Shown: positions 4,995-32,528 of the stretch, one piece after another
Layout of the letters: every line of letters begins with the position of its first letter
Position numbering within the stretch: position 1 is the stretch's first letter
Origin: Candidatus Saccharimonadota bacterium
GTDB lineage: Bacteria > Patescibacteriota > Saccharimonadia > Saccharimonadales > UBA4665
NCBI GenBank assembly: GCA_020428025.1
Contig: JAGQNO010000003.1
Span: 1-48,146, forward strand
Direction of reading: 5' to 3'
DNA: 48,146 nt
Translations under genes and position numbers: made by a program
The notes under the pieces: model-generated
What the model saw: the letters and a program-made list of their open reading frames with translations, nothing else
The model's database searches: none
What the model was told of the DNA's origin: nothing

Positions 4995-5014
4995 CGTAAT
5001 AAACTTGGTATGTT
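4970..5014. terminator. Tandem AACATACCAAG repeats and convergent hairpin
   Basis: AACATACCAAG occurs twice in tandem at 4970-4980 and 4981-4991. The second copy pairs perfectly with ACTTGGTATGTT at 5003-5014 to form a 12-bp stem (4981-4992) with a 10-base loop, followed by ATTTTAT. The stem contains the stop codons of both the Mur ligase (4992-4994) and the convergent fic gene (5013-5015), so it can end transcription from both sides. The same ACATACCAA unit recurs in front of fic. Confidence 0.75.
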
Positions 5015-6335
5015 ATTTTATCGAGCGAGCGTAGTAATAGATGAATTTGCCGCTCCGCAGCGGGTAGACAAGCTTGTGTTTCTGTAACTCCTTTAGGTCA
5101 AGCTGTGCTGTATTACTGCTGATGTTATTCAGCGAAGCATGTGATTTGGCACTGACGCGATGGTGTGGGTCGGACAAAAGATAGTGCATAACTTGCTTCT
5201 GACGCTCGTTCAGTCGGGCACGGCTCGTAATAAGTTGGTCAACGGCACGATTTTCATCATCCTGTTTCTGGATATATCCCAAAAAGTCTTGCAGCGCAGT
5301 TTTCATTTTTTGGAGGTGATAATCAAGGAAGTACGTAAAATCATTATGGTCTTGCTCTGCGTAGACGTAGGCATCGCTGTATTGCATAGGCGCGCGCTTA
5401 ATGACGGTCGATATTGGCACGTAGGTGGCCAGCCAGTAGTCCTTTTTAAGGAGATACCAATAAAAAATCGCTCGAGCCATACGGCCATTTCCATCCGCAA
5501 ACGGATGGAGGTAACCAATCCAGAAATGAAGGACAATGGCTTTTATGACGGGGTGGAGATAGTGCTCATCATCTTCATCGTTTGCAAAAGCTATCAGACG
5601 ATCAAGCTGTAGCAAGAAAAAGGACTCCTTGGGTGGGACGTAGGTAGTGCGGGGGTCCAATTCTGGTCCAAGGGTGACATTGTCAGTATCACGTCGCCAG
5701 CGGCCAATGTCGCTTTCATCCATGGTATTGGCCGCCAGAATTTGGTGCATTTCTAGCAGCAATTCTCGGCTCAACGGAACATCTTTATAAATATCCGTGG
5801 TTTTGGTCATCATGCGATAGTTATTAAGGATCATCCACTCCGATTTATCGCGCGGGAGACGATTCTCTGCAATCATATTTTTTGCGTCTTTTCTGGTGAC
5901 ACTGGCGCCCTCTAGCTGGCTAGAAGCAATAGATTCCTCAATGATGCCCCTGGTCATGTACGTCTGATGCTCACTTGTACTCAACTGAACTTTGCCGCTC
6001 AACATCTGACCACCACCCATGTACAGCGCAAAATCGTTCAAGTATTTATCCATGTAGGGCAGCCTTGACCACTTAAAAAAATCTTTGTTTGGCGTCTCGA
6101 TTGGCAGGGTAGAAGCGTTGCTGGTGCGCAGATCACGGCCCAGAGTCCAAGCCTCTTCGATATTAAAACCAGCTGGCGGTTTTATGAAACGTGCCTTTTC
6201 CCAGGGAAGATATTTTGGATAGCTTATTTGCTTCACAAAATTATCGAATTCAGGCCGATTATTAATGTAGCGTTCATAGAGGTCAGAGAAATTGACCTTT
6301 TTTTTATCTGGTTGGGAGATGTGGAAAAATTCCAT
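5013..6335 (-). CDS. Fic family protein with C-terminal winged helix
   Basis: Fic proteins usually transfer AMP (sometimes other nucleotide groups) to a hydroxyl of a target protein. The core motif HPFADGNGR lies at residues 277-285 of a 440-residue protein. An inhibitory helix with the (S/T)xxxE(G/N) pattern, SSQLEG around 138-143, precedes it, so this is a class II, self-inhibited Fic. The last ~60 residues (NERQKQVMHYLLSD onward) look like a winged helix-turn-helix, a common architecture for chromosomal Fic proteins. The start at 6335 is favoured over 6377 because TTGATA-17-TACTGT ends six bases before it. The gene sits between copies of ACATACCAA at both ends. The target protein is unknown; a toxin-like or regulatory role is possible. 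Confidence 0.9.
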   Translation of the reverse strand: MEFFHISQPDKKKVNFSDLYERYINNRPEFDNFVKQISYPKYLPWEKARFIKPPAGFNIEEAWTLGRDLRTSNASTLPIETPNKDFFKWSRLPYMDKYLNDFALYMGGGQMLSGKVQLSTSEHQTYMTRGIIEESIASSQLEGASVTRKDAKNMIAENRLPRDKSEWMILNNYRMMTKTTDIYKDVPLSRELLLEMHQILAANTMDESDIGRWRRDTDNVTLGPELDPRTTYVPPKESFFLLQLDRLIAFANDEDDEHYLHPVIKAIVLHFWIGYLHPFADGNGRMARAIFYWYLLKKDYWLATYVPISTVIKRAPMQYSDAYVYAEQDHNDFTYFLDYHLQKMKTALQDFLGYIQKQDDENRAVDQLITSRARLNERQKQVMHYLLSDPHHRVSAKSHASLNNISSNTAQLDLKELQKHKLVYPLRSGKFIYYYARSIK

Positions 6336-6341
6336 ACCCAC

Positions 6342-6370
6342 ACAGTAACACAGAAGATATACATTATCAA
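6342..6370 (-). promoter_or_regulatory. Promoter of fic
   Basis: On the minus strand TTGATA (6370 down to 6365) and TACTGT (6347 down to 6342) are 17 bases apart. The -10 ends six bases before the ATG at 6335, so transcription should begin at the start codon itself. Confidence 0.55.
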
Positions 6371-6375
6371 TTGTC

Positions 6376-6416
6376 ATACCAACTGGTGGTGTTCATTTGG
6401 TATGTATTTGGTATGT
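6376..6416. repeat. ACATACCAA direct repeats with inverted copy upstream of fic
   Basis: TTTGGTATGT occurs at 6396-6405 and again at 6407-6416; read on the minus strand this is ACATACCAAA twice at 11-base spacing. An inverted partner, ATACCAA, lies at 6376-6382. The unit starts directly after the stop codon of the amidinotransferase gene (6417-6419) and matches the repeats at 4970-5014. It could be an operator for the Fic winged-helix domain or the scar of an insertion. Confidence 0.6.
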
Positions 6417-7304
6417 TCAGTTGTCTAAGGTGACGCTGCAGCACCGCACACTGCCACCGTTTTTGGCCAGCTCTTTGTTGCTTAGGGTAGTTACGCTTAA
6501 GCCTGCCTTTTCTATAGCTGCCTGTAGCGTGGGCGCTCCGGCGTTCATAACCACGTGGTAGCCAGATGATACTAGGTTGCAGGCGCTGACGCCCACAGCT
6601 TCCTGCAAGGGCACCTCTATGCGGTCCACAAAGTCTAAGCCGCGGATCGTGGCTTGGCTTGCGGGCTCAAAGGCTTCTGGGCACCAGGCCACTAAGCCCT
6701 TTTGTTCAAGCGTGGGCCAGCGCAGTATGGCAATGGCTAGGTCTATATCGTAAAAGTCGCTGTCTGGCCAGCCAGAAGCCTGGTTAATAACAGGGGTCCC
6801 ATTAGCGTCTCGAGCGGGTATGGTTTGCAATGGAATAACCTTGTAGCCCAAGATTTCAGAGATGGCGGTGTGGGCGGCCGGGTCTGTGCGGTAGGTGGTG
6901 CCGGCAAAGACGTAGTCGCCGCAGGGCAGCGCATCGCCTTGGCCACTAAATCGGATATCTTCTGGCAAAAAGTGCAGTTCTAAGCCTTGCTGCCCTAGCA
7001 CTTTAGCGGCGTAGGCTTCTTCTGCCTGGCGGACATTGGGCAGGTGCGACATCAGCGCCTTGTTGCCACGCGTCAGCGCCCAGTTGGCGGTAAAAATGCC
7101 GTCCTGGCAATCAGTTGGCGGGTCAACTTTTATAACTTTGATACCGGCGTCTTCTAGCGCTTTTTGGATGGAGGAATGCTCGCGCATCGCCTCTTGACGG
7201 TCAAAGGGCTGCCCCTGGTGCATATAGGGGTTAATGGGCGATGCATTGATCATGAAATCTGCGCCGCTCATGAGGACGGTTTGGTTAATAACGGGTTTCT
7301 GCAT
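6417..7304 (-). CDS. Amidinotransferase-fold hydrolase (DDAH/arginine deiminase-like)
   Basis: A 295-residue member of the pentein (amidinotransferase/dimethylargininase) family, which acts on guanidino groups through a covalent cysteine intermediate. Visible signatures are DCQDGIFTANWALTRGNKAL at about residues 66-85 and the catalytic-cysteine region GGSVRCCSVTL at the extreme C-terminus. A highly hydrophobic upstream extension to 7436 is open but overlaps the probable RNA element and is not family-like. The ATG at 7304 has TATACT (7319 down to 7314) ending nine bases before it, consistent with a leaderless message. Its stop is followed at once by the fic-associated repeats. Substrate (arginine, dimethylarginine, citrulline, N-succinylarginine) cannot be decided here. 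Confidence 0.87.
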   Translation of the reverse strand: MQKPVINQTVLMSGADFMINASPINPYMHQGQPFDRQEAMREHSSIQKALEDAGIKVIKVDPPTDCQDGIFTANWALTRGNKALMSHLPNVRQAEEAYAAKVLGQQGLELHFLPEDIRFSGQGDALPCGDYVFAGTTYRTDPAAHTAISEILGYKVIPLQTIPARDANGTPVINQASGWPDSDFYDIDLAIAILRWPTLEQKGLVAWCPEAFEPASQATIRGLDFVDRIEVPLQEAVGVSACNLVSSGYHVVMNAGAPTLQAAIEKAGLSVTTLSNKELAKNGGSVRCCSVTLDN

Positions 7305-7329
7305 ACGGTTATAAGTATACCAGGGTGGG

Positions 7330-7467
7330 GTGGAGCAAGCGGAGAAAGGTGTTGTTGAGAAAAGGAGCGGCCAAGTGGCTGCTGCAACTTTTCCCAGACC
7401 TTTCGTCCGCTTGCGGGGGCCGGAGAAGCCACTCAAGGTAAGGTGGATGCTTGCGCATTGCTCCCAC
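7330..7467 (+). ncRNA. Candidate structured RNA, unknown family
   Basis: This gene-free stretch folds into a long hairpin. GCAAGCGGA (7335-7343) pairs with TCCGCTTGC (7406-7414), AAAGGT (7345-7350) with ACCTTT (7398-7403), GAAAAG (7359-7364) with CTTTTC (7388-7393), and GCGGCC (7367-7372) with GGCTGC (7377-7382) around the loop AAGT. An outer stem is possible between GTGGAGCAA (7330-7338) and TTGCTCCCAC (7458-7467), with GGC/GCC around CGGAGAA (7419-7431) as a third arm. The only wobble is G-U on the plus strand, where it would be C/A on the minus strand, favouring the plus strand. A U-rich run (TTTATCTTTT) follows. It does not match the SRP, tmRNA, RNase P or 6S signatures I know. No convincing promoter was found. 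Confidence 0.5.
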
Positions 7468-7505
7468 TTTATCTTTTGCGAGTGACCCCTCCGGCGTTGT
7501 CCGCG

Positions 7506-7841
7506 TCAGACGCCGGCGGCGATCCAAGCGACGTCGTGGGCGATGCCCGCGGCGAGCTTCTGGAGAGCCGTCTGGCGCTTGTCACCCGTGAGGCGACCGA
7601 TCTGGTAGCGGATGATGATCCAGCCGGGCTCGCGACCGTCGCTGACGCCACTGACTTCGCGTCGCGCGCTGATCTTGGCCTTGAGGCTGTTGATCTTGCC
7701 GACCGGGACGATGCCCACGATGTTCACCTGCATCTGCAGGGTCTGGTCGACGGTGGTCACCCGGACTCGCTTGGCGATCTCAGCGGCGCGCTGCTTGCGT
7801 GCCTCGAGAGCCGGTGCGGCGAGCTTAGCCTGACGGACCAT
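7506..7841 (-). CDS. Small basic protein of unknown function, GC-rich
   Basis: A 111-residue protein rich in Ala, Val, Arg and Lys, with no family I recognise. The N-terminus (LEARKQRAAEIAKRVRV) looks like a basic helix; the centre has alternating hydrophobic residues (QMQVNIVGIVPVG) suggesting beta structure. It is preferred over the longer plus-strand reading frame across the same bases because it has AAGGAGT 5-6 bases before its ATG and a promoter on its own strand: TTGTCA (7937 down to 7932), 17 bases, TATACT (7914 down to 7909). Its base composition is clearly more GC-rich than its neighbours and its third codon positions are dominated by G and C, which may mean acquisition from elsewhere. 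The probable structured RNA begins about 40 bases beyond its stop. Confidence 0.6.
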   Translation of the reverse strand: MVRQAKLAAPALEARKQRAAEIAKRVRVTTVDQTLQMQVNIVGIVPVGKINSLKAKISARREVSGVSDGREPGWIIIRYQIGRLTGDKRQTALQKLAAGIAHDVAWIAAGV

Positions 7842-7908
7842 GTGGTACTCCTTGGGTTGTGACTCCGGAGAGTGGGTGGGGTACTACATCCGATGTTCGG
7901 ACCCCAAC

Positions 7909-7959
7909 AGTATAAACCAGATTGTAAACTTTGACAATATGCAACTTTTGTATTATTAT
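7909..7959. promoter_or_regulatory. Divergent promoters sharing one -35 site
   Basis: TTGACAA at 7931-7937 reads as TTGACA on the plus strand (7931-7936) and TTGTCA on the minus strand (7937 down to 7932). The plus promoter continues 17 bases to TATTAT at 7954-7959 for the gene at 7971. The minus promoter continues 17 bases to TATACT (7914 down to 7909) for the gene ending at 7841. Binding of polymerase to one should exclude the other. Confidence 0.7.
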
Positions 7960-7970
7960 ACAGTTGAATT

Positions 7971-8708
7971 ATGACCGCTGAAGCCTGGAGACCCGATAAT
8001 TACCTAGAAGACCGAAAAGCTGCAATTAATGCAGAGGTAGTTTTAGCTAGCTATGAAGCAATAAGCAGGCAGTGTGAGCTCCTCATAGAACATGGTTTTA
8101 GACTGACGCAAAGACTTGTATCTATCGATGCTATGGGATTTGAGGCTTACGATAAGCTAGATGAAGACGAGCAGCAGATAAATGGTCTTCAGCTATATGT
8201 TTCTCCGACTATGTTTGAGGCATTATGGGCAGGTGAACCACCTGAAAGCGGGGAGAGTGACACTCGTGAGCCGCAAGATGCACTTTCCATAAAGCTTATC
8301 TCAATGGCAGTAGAGGATGACGAACATGCAGGTGATCAACTGGAACTTATATTCCCAGTTCAGCCAGACTATGAATATCCCGGGCCACTTGCTGATGATG
8401 ATTTGCCACCATCAGCATTCCTAAAATATACACCAAATCCGCGCACCGCTGAGCCAGCCATAAGATATGCAATAATCAGGGATGGATTAAGCCCTGGGCA
8501 GCCATTTCGAATTTATCCCTATGAAAGTGCCTGGGACACTGGCGAAGACATTTTACACGATGATTTTAGTGCCAAACGCGCAATGTATGTGCTAACACAT
8601 CGTATGCCAGACATGGCACCTGTCATGGCCCGGTTATTTACATCTTTTGGTAATTTTGATGCCACCCCACAAGTTGATATTAGACCTAGTGGCAAAACGG
8701 AACTCTAG
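7971..8708 (+). CDS. Hypothetical acidic cytosolic protein
   Basis: A 245-residue acidic protein without signal peptide or membrane segment; I do not recognise the family. The first ~60 residues look helical (YLEDRKAAINAEVVLASYEA). A Glu/Asp/Pro-rich stretch follows near residues 90-110, then beta-like segments (LELIFPVQPDYEYPG, AIRYAIIRDGLSPGQPFRIY). Codon use is more AT-rich than in the adjacent groEL. Transcription should start about five bases before the ATG (promoter at 7931-7959), and no Shine-Dalgarno is present, so the message is effectively leaderless. It lies just upstream of the heat-shock operon but is separated from it by the groES promoter. Confidence 0.7.
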   Translation: MTAEAWRPDNYLEDRKAAINAEVVLASYEAISRQCELLIEHGFRLTQRLVSIDAMGFEAYDKLDEDEQQINGLQLYVSPTMFEALWAGEPPESGESDTREPQDALSIKLISMAVEDDEHAGDQLELIFPVQPDYEYPGPLADDDLPPSAFLKYTPNPRTAEPAIRYAIIRDGLSPGQPFRIYPYESAWDTGEDILHDDFSAKRAMYVLTHRMPDMAPVMARLFTSFGNFDATPQVDIRPSGKTEL

Positions 8709-8712
8709 CCTC

Positions 8713-8742
8713 TTGACCCCCACATTAGCACTCTGCTACACT
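8713..8742 (+). promoter_or_regulatory. groESL promoter
   Basis: TTGACC at 8713-8718 and TACACT at 8737-8742 are 18 bases apart. The -10 lies inside the spacer of the CIRCE operator, so repressor binding would block polymerase directly. Confidence 0.7.
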
Positions 8743-8751
8743 GAGTGCTAG
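8725..8751 (+). promoter_or_regulatory. CIRCE operator (HrcA binding site)
   Basis: TTAGCACTC at 8725-8733, a nine-base spacer and GAGTGCTAG at 8743-8751 match the CIRCE consensus with one terminal difference. CIRCE is bound by the HrcA repressor, which releases on heat or protein-folding stress. No hrcA gene is in this window, so the repressor must be encoded elsewhere. Confidence 0.95.
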
Positions 8752-8777
8752 AAACAGATTAAAAAGGAGGTCATACC

Positions 8778-9047
8778 ATGCAGACACTCAAGCCTTTGAG
8801 TGATTATGTGGTCGCGACAGTAGAGGCGGCCCAAACCAAAACCGCCAGCGGTTTTTATCTGCCAGATAGCGCTCAGGAAAAACCTAAAACCGCCATCGTG
8901 TCGGCCGTTGGTCCGGACGTCAAACAGCTGAAGGTTAAAGATCAGATTGTGTACAAGAGCTATAGCCCTACGGAGCTTAAAATCGGCAACACGGAGTACA
9001 TTTTGGTTAAAGAAGAAGACGTTCTTGCAACGGTGGAGGGTAAATAA
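8778..9047 (+). CDS. groES: Co-chaperonin GroES
   Basis: GroES forms the seven-subunit lid of the GroEL folding chamber. The protein has 89 residues, slightly short of the usual 94-97. It begins with the standard LKPLSDYVVATV strand; the mobile loop region is QTKTASGFYLPDSAQEKP at about residues 19-36; the C-terminus IGNTEYILVKEEDVLATVEG is typical. A strong AAGGAGG at 8764-8770 precedes the ATG. The gene follows the CIRCE-controlled promoter and lies three bases upstream of groEL, so the two are co-transcribed. Confidence 0.97.
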   Translation: MQTLKPLSDYVVATVEAAQTKTASGFYLPDSAQEKPKTAIVSAVGPDVKQLKVKDQIVYKSYSPTELKIGNTEYILVKEEDVLATVEGK

Positions 9048-9050
9048 TTT

Positions 9051-10676
9051 ATGGCCAAAAAAGTTTTTTATGACGATGACGCGCGTCGCCGCGTGTTAGC
9101 GGGTGCAGAGATTTTATATAACGCCGTCAAGACCACTATGGGCCCTAAAGGCCGCAACGTGGTCATTAGCAAGGCCTACGGCGGCCCAACGGTGACGCAC
9201 GACGGCGTTACGGTAGCAAAGGGCGTAGAACTCGCCGACGTAGACGATGAAACCTTAGGCCAAAAAGTCGGTGCAGAACTGATTAAGCAAGCCGCCTCCA
9301 AAATGAATGATGTGGCGGGCGATGGCACCACCACTGTTACGGTGCTGACCTATCACATCTTGCAGGAAGCCAACAAACTAATCGCCGCCGGCCACAACCC
9401 TATGCAGCTACGAAAAGGCCTAGAAACGGCTGCACACCAGGTTATTACCGCGCTCTCCAAGCTGGCGGAGCCCATTGAGGGCAACAAGAAGCGTGTGGCA
9501 GAAGTGGCCACCATTAGCGCCGCCGATGCCGCCATTGGCGACCTAATTGCCGACGTTATGGACAAAGTTGGCCGCGATGGCGTGGTTACAGTGGAAGAAG
9601 GACAGGGCCTGGCGCTAGAAAAAGAGGTTGTAGCCGGTTTTACGTTTGACCGCGGTTTTGTTAGCCCCTTTATGGCCACTGATACCGCCCGCATGGAAGC
9701 CGTTTACAATAAGCCGGCCGTGGTTATTACGGACCGTAAACTCAGCTCAATCCAGGAATTCTTGCCGCTGCTAGAAAAGTTGGCGCAGACCGGCAAAAAA
9801 GACCTAGTCTTAATTGCAGAAGATGTCGATGGCGAGGCCCTGGGCACGCTCATCCTAAACCGCCTCAAGGGCGTCTTTAACACCGTGGCCGTCAAGGCAC
9901 CTAGCTTTGGTGACCGCCGCAAAGAGGTGTTAGAAGATATCGCCATCCTAACCGGTGCGCAGGTAATTTCTGCAGACCTTGGCATGACCTTTGAAAACGT
10001 GGACCTGGACGTTGTGGGCACGGCCCGCAAGGTGTTAGTAACCAAAGATGCCACCACTATTATTGAAGGTGGCGGCCGGCCACAGGCTGTGGCGGCCCGC
10101 ATCAAGCAAATCGCGGAGCAGTCCGCAGCCGCGACTAGCTCCTATGACCGCACAGAGTACGACAAGCGCCGCGCCGCCCTAGATGGCCGCGTAGCTGTTA
10201 TTAAGGTTGGCGGTGCCACTGAAACAGAGATAGAAGAGAAGAAATTCCGCGTGGATGACGCCGTGGCCGCTGTTAAAGCTGCCCTGGCTGATGGCATTGT
10301 ACCCGGCGGCGGCGTGACTTTGATTAACCTGGCCTCCAGCGTAAAATCCGCCGATGACCCCGGCGCCCAGCTACTGGTCCGCGCTCTAGAGCAGCCGTTC
10401 CGCATTTTGCTGACCAACGCGGGCCTAAACCCAGACGAATGGCTACCCCAAGTCCGCGCCGCCAAGCCGGGCTACGGTGTTAATGTAAACAACCCCACCA
10501 AACTAGTGGACCTAAAAGCCGCTGGCGTGATTGACCCAGCCCGGGTTACCGCCGAGGCTTTGCAGAATGCGGCTTCCATTGCCGGTACGGCTATGACTAT
10601 GGGGGCTTTAGTGGTTGACGTGCCGAGCGCTGAGCCAGCTGCTCCCGCTGGCGGCCCCGGCATGGGCATGATGTAG
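9051..10676 (+). CDS. groEL: Chaperonin GroEL
   Basis: The 541-residue Hsp60 chaperonin forms the double-ring ATP-driven folding chamber with GroES. Recognisable are [11 protein letters not shown] near residue 28, the nucleotide-binding GDGTTT near residue 85, DRGFVSPFM in the apical region, [12 protein letters not shown], and the Gly-Met-rich C-terminal tail GGPGMGMM. It starts three bases after the groES stop and shares the CIRCE promoter. No clear terminator follows; the next gene on the other strand ends only 15 bases away. Confidence 0.98.
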
Positions 10677-31878: not shown

Positions 31879-32130
31879 ATGCAAACAATTCCTGTTAATG
31901 AAGTTAAGGCTAAATTTAGCCACTATTTGGCCGCCGCAGAGGCCGGCCAGACTATTTACGTGGGACGGTTTGGTAAGCCTATTGCCCGTATTATGCCGCT
32001 AGAAAAGAAGCAGCCAAAGTCCTGGATTGGGGCCATGAAAGGTCAGTTCCACATCTCTGAAGAAGACTGGGAAGCGTCAGAAAAACTGATGGCTAAAGAT
32101 TGGGACGTTTGGCTAGATAAGGACATCTAA
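31879..32130 (+). CDS. Phd/YefM-family antitoxin
   Basis: An 83-residue antitoxin of the Phd/YefM type. The N-terminal DNA-binding half has the family pattern TIPVNEVKAKFSHYLAAAEAGQTIYVGRFGKPIARIMP; the C-terminal half (SWIGAMKGQFHISEEDWEASE) would wrap the toxin. Such antitoxins neutralise the partner and repress their own promoter, here through the palindrome at 31863-31877. The stop codon overlaps the ATG of the PIN-domain toxin by one base, a tightly coupled arrangement. Confidence 0.9.
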   Translation: MQTIPVNEVKAKFSHYLAAAEAGQTIYVGRFGKPIARIMPLEKKQPKSWIGAMKGQFHISEEDWEASEKLMAKDWDVWLDKDI

Positions 32131-32528
32131 TGTTGGCGGATACGCATATTCTAATCTGGGCTCTAGAGGGTCAAAGGGGCAGTATTGGCCCTAAAACTTG
32201 GGCAATGCTACAAGAGAAATATCAGTCTGTTGCAGTGTCTTCTATTAGTTTACTAGAGATTAAACTTAAGCAGCGCCGCGGTAAGCTTACAGACATTGAT
32301 ACGTCAGCTGCTCTAGCCCTACTCAAACAAAGGCAGGTGCCTATTCTAGAAGTGACAGCAGAGCAAGCGATTGCGACCGCCACTGCTAAAAATGCACCAC
32401 ATGCAGATCCATTTGATTTGTTGCTTGTAGCCCAAGCCCAAGAAAAACAGCTCCCGCTTATCACTTGCGATAAGGCTATTCTGGCCCTCCAGCTGCCGGG
32501 CCTGCAACTTATTGATGCTCGTCAGTAA
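32130..32528 (+). CDS. PIN-domain ribonuclease toxin (VapC-like)
   Basis: A 132-residue PIN-domain protein, the toxin of a type II pair. PIN toxins are Mg2+-dependent ribonucleases, often cutting tRNA or rRNA. The acidic residues expected at the active site are visible: Asp4 (MLADTHILIWAL), Glu43 (SISLLEIKLKQRRG), the aspartates of HADPFDLLLVAQA near residues 91-97, and TCDKAI near residue 111. It overlaps the antitoxin by one base. All key residues are present, so it is predicted active. Confidence 0.9.
   Translation: MLADTHILIWALEGQRGSIGPKTWAMLQEKYQSVAVSSISLLEIKLKQRRGKLTDIDTSAALALLKQRQVPILEVTAEQAIATATAKNAPHADPFDLLLVAQAQEKQLPLITCDKAILALQLPGLQLIDARQ

Follow-up and report, generated by a model that had tools for sequence, protein, structure and literature searches.

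The hairpin analysed here lies in a stretch of 48,146 nucleotides (the window) from a Candidatus Saccharimonadota bacterium, between a small gene coding for a basic protein and a gene coding for a DDAH-like amidinohydrolase, both located on the minus strand. The features of the locus, read from the sequence, are as follows.

6417-7304, minus strand: DDAH-like amidinohydrolase gene, near leaderless
7314-7319, minus strand: -10 box TATACT of the DDAH-like gene, 9 nt before its ATG, ending the 3' UTR of the small gene
7335-7414, minus strand: hairpin B, the hairpin initially reported, 80 nt, -40.6 kcal/mol (plus strand, -42.9 kcal/mol), outer stem GCAAGCGGA, 3' half of the loop G-poor
7419-7495, minus strand: hairpin A, 77 nt, -39.5 kcal/mol, abutting hairpin B
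7499-7503, minus strand: post-stop motif CGGAC, complementary to GTCCG in the leader
7506-7841, minus strand: gene of the 111-aa orphan basic protein, pI 11.2, GC3 0.86, NNC codon choices 19/19
7848-7853, minus strand: Shine-Dalgarno sequence AAGGAG
7898-7902, minus strand: 5' leader motif GTCCG, located 6 nt downstream of the -10 box, putative pairing partner of 7499-7503
7909-7937, minus strand: small-gene promoter TTGTCA-17-TATACT, 10 of 12 consensus matches
7931-7959, plus strand: promoter TTGACA-17-TATTAT, divergent from the small-gene promoter
7971-8708, plus strand: divergent gene of an acidic 245-aa orphan protein, pI 4.3, with positional counterparts in the related genomes G001, G016, G025 and G145
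8778-9047, plus strand: groES, used as synteny anchor

Fold of hairpin B and organisation of the 3' UTR

The four stacked helices described at 7335-7414 by the initial annotation are present. The outer stem of 9 bp, GCAAGCGGA/TCCGCTTGC, pairs 7335-7343 with 7406-7414 and encloses AAAGGT/ACCTTT, an A/T-rich inner stem and then GCGGCC/GGCTGC, the helix that carries the single G-U, on the plus strand as had been noted. The region 7330-7467 exhibited a minimum free energy of -63.3 kcal/mol on the plus strand and -55.6 kcal/mol on the minus strand, with z values of -4.1 and -4.4, respectively, and none of 200 shuffled sequences folded as well. After GC correction, hairpin B ranked about 18th of 20,673 windows of 80 nt taken from 452 kb of the same genome; those of the outranking windows that were inspected were mostly long perfect palindromic terminator hairpins beside tRNA genes, so that the strength of the fold alone proves little. 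In agreement with the earlier description, no frame spanning the structure looked convincingly coding. The U-rich run said to follow the outer stem is absent on both strands (plus, GGGGGCCGG; minus, TCCACCCC); as a T-run follows neither 7414 on the plus strand nor 7335 on the minus strand, hairpin B lacks the combination of GC-rich stem and T-run of an intrinsic terminator. The third small arm does exist, but it belongs to a second hairpin of equal size, 7419-7495, reaching beyond 7467. The initial observation was confirmed in part.

The structure folds about equally well on the two strands and was assigned to a minus-strand transcript because of its gene context. On this strand, the stop codon of the small gene is followed by 10 nt, by hairpin A (7495-7419), by hairpin B (7414-7335) and by the -10 box of the next gene (7319-7314); from this position, hairpins A and B fill the whole 3' UTR of the 111-aa gene. 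The initial interpretation is partly supported: the link proposed with the small basic protein gene is supported, since the structure is the 3' UTR of that gene, while a regulatory leader is improbable: just before the ATG of the DDAH-like gene, downstream of the hairpin, there is a separate -10 box, as there is in its relatives. Judged from the promoter consensus only, the structure does not lie within the 5' UTR of the DDAH-like gene, and an equivalent -10 box was found upstream of many of its orthologues.

Several other features of this genome were recorded. The locus L118 (contig C87, 70-131) matched the DUF3800-IX RNA of Rfam with 45.4 bits, above the gathering threshold. At L132, L127, L106, L108 and L099, near-perfect 20-bp palindromes with A/T tracts, probably bidirectional terminators, lie downstream of tRNA genes. 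At L115 (contig C44, 8962-9418), an 89-aa GC3-rich orphan gene (9065-9334, minus strand) lies between two long hairpins, of which the one downstream has a CAAGCGGGC-type stem resembling hairpin B of the window. Within the window, an ORF at 32130-32528 resembles, by eye, a PIN-domain (VapC-like) toxin.

A family of twin-hairpin elements at the groES locus

In 60 relatives, a DNA search with 7300-7510 returned nothing beyond chance matches of 15-29 bases, and the single-sequence covariance models R1 and R2 retrieved only the window in 93 genomes. By synteny, with the interval between groES and the DDAH-like or arginase gene scanned in 40 stretches from relatives and other loci, 11 elements repeating the same layout beside groES were found in nine genomes of one family. 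They comprise the window, two elements each in G001 and G011 (head-to-tail copies in the latter) and one each in G015, G016, G023, G025, G032 and G145. The shared layout consists of a strong promoter, a GUCC-type 5' leader, a small, mostly GC3-rich orphan gene, a complement of the leader after the stop codon, hairpin A, hairpin B and a DDAH-like or arginase gene. The window shows this layout, with a leader pairing of only 5 bp and a hairpin B of the GCAAGCGGA sub-type. In G001, the only same-genus genome compared (about 75% complete), a 104-aa basic gene with C-ending codons occupies the same place; its promoter boxes and their spacing are identical to those of the window, the transcript starts are alike (GTTGTGGTCC vs GTTGGGGTCC), and two tandem hairpins precede the DDAH-like gene. 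The 104-aa and 111-aa proteins share about 29% identity over 49 residues only.

The stem of hairpin A is strong in every member, and its sequence is unrelated from one member to the next. For hairpin B, the outer stem is of the type CCGGGTTYRRT in eight elements, GCAAGCGGA in the window and in gene 1 of G001, and GCCGAG in G023. The membership of the window is based on position and anatomy, because its stem is shared only with that second element, from a genome of the same genus. In the CCGGGTT type alone, double changes were seen at 5 of 12 pairs, and the covariation score was 0.357, compared to 0.180 for shuffled alignments (0/500 as high). When nine distinct outer stems were pooled, a figure mixing stem types that are perhaps not homologous column by column, 92.9% of the cells were paired vs 66.3% after shuffling (0/500), and all 11 pairs had double changes; these pair counts are biased upward, several members having been found via their hairpins. 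In members located through codon bias or hairpins, these features are not independent evidence, because the search looked for them. A lack of covariation in homologues, named by the initial annotation as grounds for rejection, was not observed for the class, although the stem sub-type of the window has one relative only.

The loop of hairpin B also has a conserved composition. In the 24 nt before its 3' arm, on the sense strand, G accounts for 16 of 264 residues vs 67 for the 5' half (binomial test against an expected share of 25%, P 5e-16) and C for 106 of 264; this half of the loop is G-poor in all 11 elements. A small internal arm, often GAGAC/GTCTC, recurs. The antisense strand folds hairpin B better in 10 of the 11 members (-398 vs -334 kcal/mol in total), which is explained at least in part by the G-poor loop.

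The exact pattern CCGGGTT...AACCCGG, searched in 393 genomes of the class, yielded no credible element other than those beside groES in this one family. The covariance model R3, for the CCGGGTT type, found the same eight groES loci in 93 family genomes, plus one weak match (E 0.2). Nine matches to the patterns of both types in viral contigs were rejected; they resemble tRNAs or lack the other parts of the element, and look like chance. Neither the window nor any of eight related loci matched one of the 4227 Rfam models at the gathering threshold, and only weak C/D-box matches, located elsewhere, appeared at E up to 5. Synteny and covariation support a structured element new to Rfam, and literature searches returned no description of it. 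The twin-hairpin element as such is well supported.

At the 5' end of many elements, the longest complementary stretch of the leader begins no more than one base away from position 7 downstream of the -10 box, and the sequence that it matches directly follows the stop codon, ahead of hairpin A (GGTCCTG/CAGGACC in G001, GTCCG/CGGAC in the window). In windows chosen after inspection, the pairing having been noticed post hoc, the complementarity summed to 60 bp over the 11 elements, compared to 43.7 ± 2.9 for shuffled sequences (0/2000); against permuted partners (53.7 ± 3.3, 206/5000), the excess is only marginal. In G032 the complementarity amounts to only 3 bp. From these two controls, the leader motif is conserved, and true covariation of the pair is only suggested.

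The interval from groES to the DDAH-like or arginase gene (7304-8778 in the window) varies in gene content and, from about 0.15 to 2.7 kb, in length, and is a hotspot for orphan genes; in several members it contains CIRCE-like inverted repeats (TTAGCACTC/GAGTGCTAA). In the window, a Fic-domain gene (5013-6377) lies between murE and the DDAH-like gene, which are adjacent without it in G001. Two further loci near groES, L189 (G014, 540-670) and L155 (G030, 969-1090), carry GC3-rich small genes with one strong hairpin after them, in the opposite orientation, and are possibly related elements.

The small gene and its product

The strong promoter, the AAGGAG sequence and the extreme codon bias of the 111-aa gene fit high expression. 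Its codon choice is unmatched among the other credible genes of the 452 kb examined. That the bias stems from recent acquisition from a high-GC donor was judged unlikely, as most counterparts in other genera share it. The small gene of G032 has no codon bias, so that high expression is not suggested for all members.

The 111-aa protein gave nothing convincing in Pfam, PADLOC, PHROGs, NCBIfam and PDB sequences, or with the profile A3, and no relatives were found by peptide-pattern scans of viral and genome contigs or in the phages and plasmids searched. Weak protein matches in G093, G077 and G367 proved to be antisense frames of larger ORFs. A Foldseek search with a single-sequence AlphaFold model (pLDDT 72) reached a best E of 0.02, the matches, which included YbjN-like and secretion-chaperone-like folds, being not significant. 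BLASTP does not recognise the 11 proteins of the elements as relatives of one another (best E 0.008 with these 11 sequences as the database), and none has a convincing family match in Pfam or PADLOC. Their pI is 9.7-11.4 in nine cases, and two are acidic (5.0 and 5.1). A similar order of strands and helices is suggested by the single-sequence models of the window protein and of its G016 counterpart (pLDDT 48, low confidence). The proteins may belong to a single family that has diverged extremely, or the slot may be occupied by different proteins.

Possible functions of the twin hairpins

From the sequence evidence, we tentatively infer that the reported hairpin is the second of a two-hairpin 3' UTR that may close and protect a compact mRNA, highly expressed and coding for a small protein that evolves fast; we rate this reading a little below an even chance. 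The 5' leader would pair with the post-stop motif and thereby close the message, hairpins A and B would set its 3' end and shield it from exonucleases, and hairpin B would also aid transcription termination in the four members with a U-tract (G015, G023, G025 and G032). The outcome would be a very stable, highly translated monocistronic message, with a small, usually basic and fast-evolving product. ORFs of the window that we take, from their sequence, to be RNase J-like and PNPase-like were counted in favour of this reading. No Rho was found in nine genomes, some of them incomplete (contigs C44, C54 and C11 of the present genome and eight related genomes), the best TIGR00767 match having 47 bits vs a cut-off of 509; such weak matches were read as paralogous ATPases. 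Factor-independent 3' ends are expected from this result, and a Rho-utilisation site, prompted by the C-rich, G-poor loop, was rejected. Closing and 3' protection of the message are favoured because most other signs are those of a compact, strongly expressed message and because no Rho was found. Against this reading stand the better antisense fold in 10 of 11 members, the absence of a U-tract in 7 of 11 and the marginal leader pairing. REP-type hairpins that protect 3' ends are likewise 3' UTR stem-loops that could block 3' exonucleases, but the present elements are single-locus and non-repetitive, with a conserved outer-stem sequence and a proposed 5' leader pairing.

Among the alternatives, the likeliest, though doubtful, is that the RNA itself is the functional product, hairpins A and B, perhaps with the closed leader, being cut from the mRNA or acting in it, to bind the basic protein as an RNP or to autoregulate. 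The conservation of RNA ends and stems while the protein diverges, the high pI of nine of the 11 proteins, and, within hairpin B, the small internal arm and the conserved stretch poor in G, presumably unpaired, which together resemble a binding surface, are consistent with this; the two acidic members argue against it, as do the predicted protein folds, which are of low confidence and match no RNA-binding family. OLE RNA is also a structured RNA associated with protein (PMC12265935, PMC12054373), whereas the RNA of the element carries its own ORF, has far smaller twin hairpins and no Rfam match. An ordinary terminator, or a decayed inverted repeat without special function, ranks next and is unlikely. 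Other strong hairpins of the same genome are terminators, and intrinsic (Rho-independent) terminators share with the elements a strong GC-rich hairpin at the gene end and, after four of the 11 B hairpins, a U-tract; the window, however, has no U-tract, like most elements, and two tandem hairpins of 45-82 nt, an internal arm, a G-poor loop, covariation and restriction to a single locus are not terminator features.

Least probable of the three is a DNA element, whose hairpins would form on single-stranded DNA and allow cassettes with small genes to be exchanged at the groES hotspot in the manner of integron attC sites. Those sites are likewise imperfect hairpins that follow small ORFs differing from one another, with occasional tandem arrays, and the different ORFs between similar ends, the paired elements of G011 and G001 and the better antisense fold of hairpin B agree with such a role. 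On the other side, the outer stems CCGGGTT...AACCCGG and GCAAGCGGA...TCCGCTTGC, read from the sequence, do not contain the attC core RYYYAAC...GTTRRRY, no integrase or other recombinase was recognised nearby, there is one locus per genome, the ORF lengths are alike, and the conservation of the promoter, the leader and the post-stop motif favours a role as RNA.

In a broader reading, which we consider possible but rather improbable, the elements would be a new class of RNA-protein cassettes: a conserved, functional RNA frame made up of the 5' leader, the closing pair and hairpins A and B would surround a hypervariable ORF, either as a co-evolving RNP or as an exchangeable slot beside groES in these reduced genomes. 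If the reading preferred here, that of a closed and protected message, is right, an mRNA architecture keeps its fold and its ends while stem sequences and the encoded protein turn over almost completely, which is why sequence searches would miss it. The family would then harbour a hidden small-protein system, probably highly expressed and rapidly evolving, for which CCGGGTTYRRT...AYYRAACCCGG together with the GGUCCUG leader provides a searchable motif.
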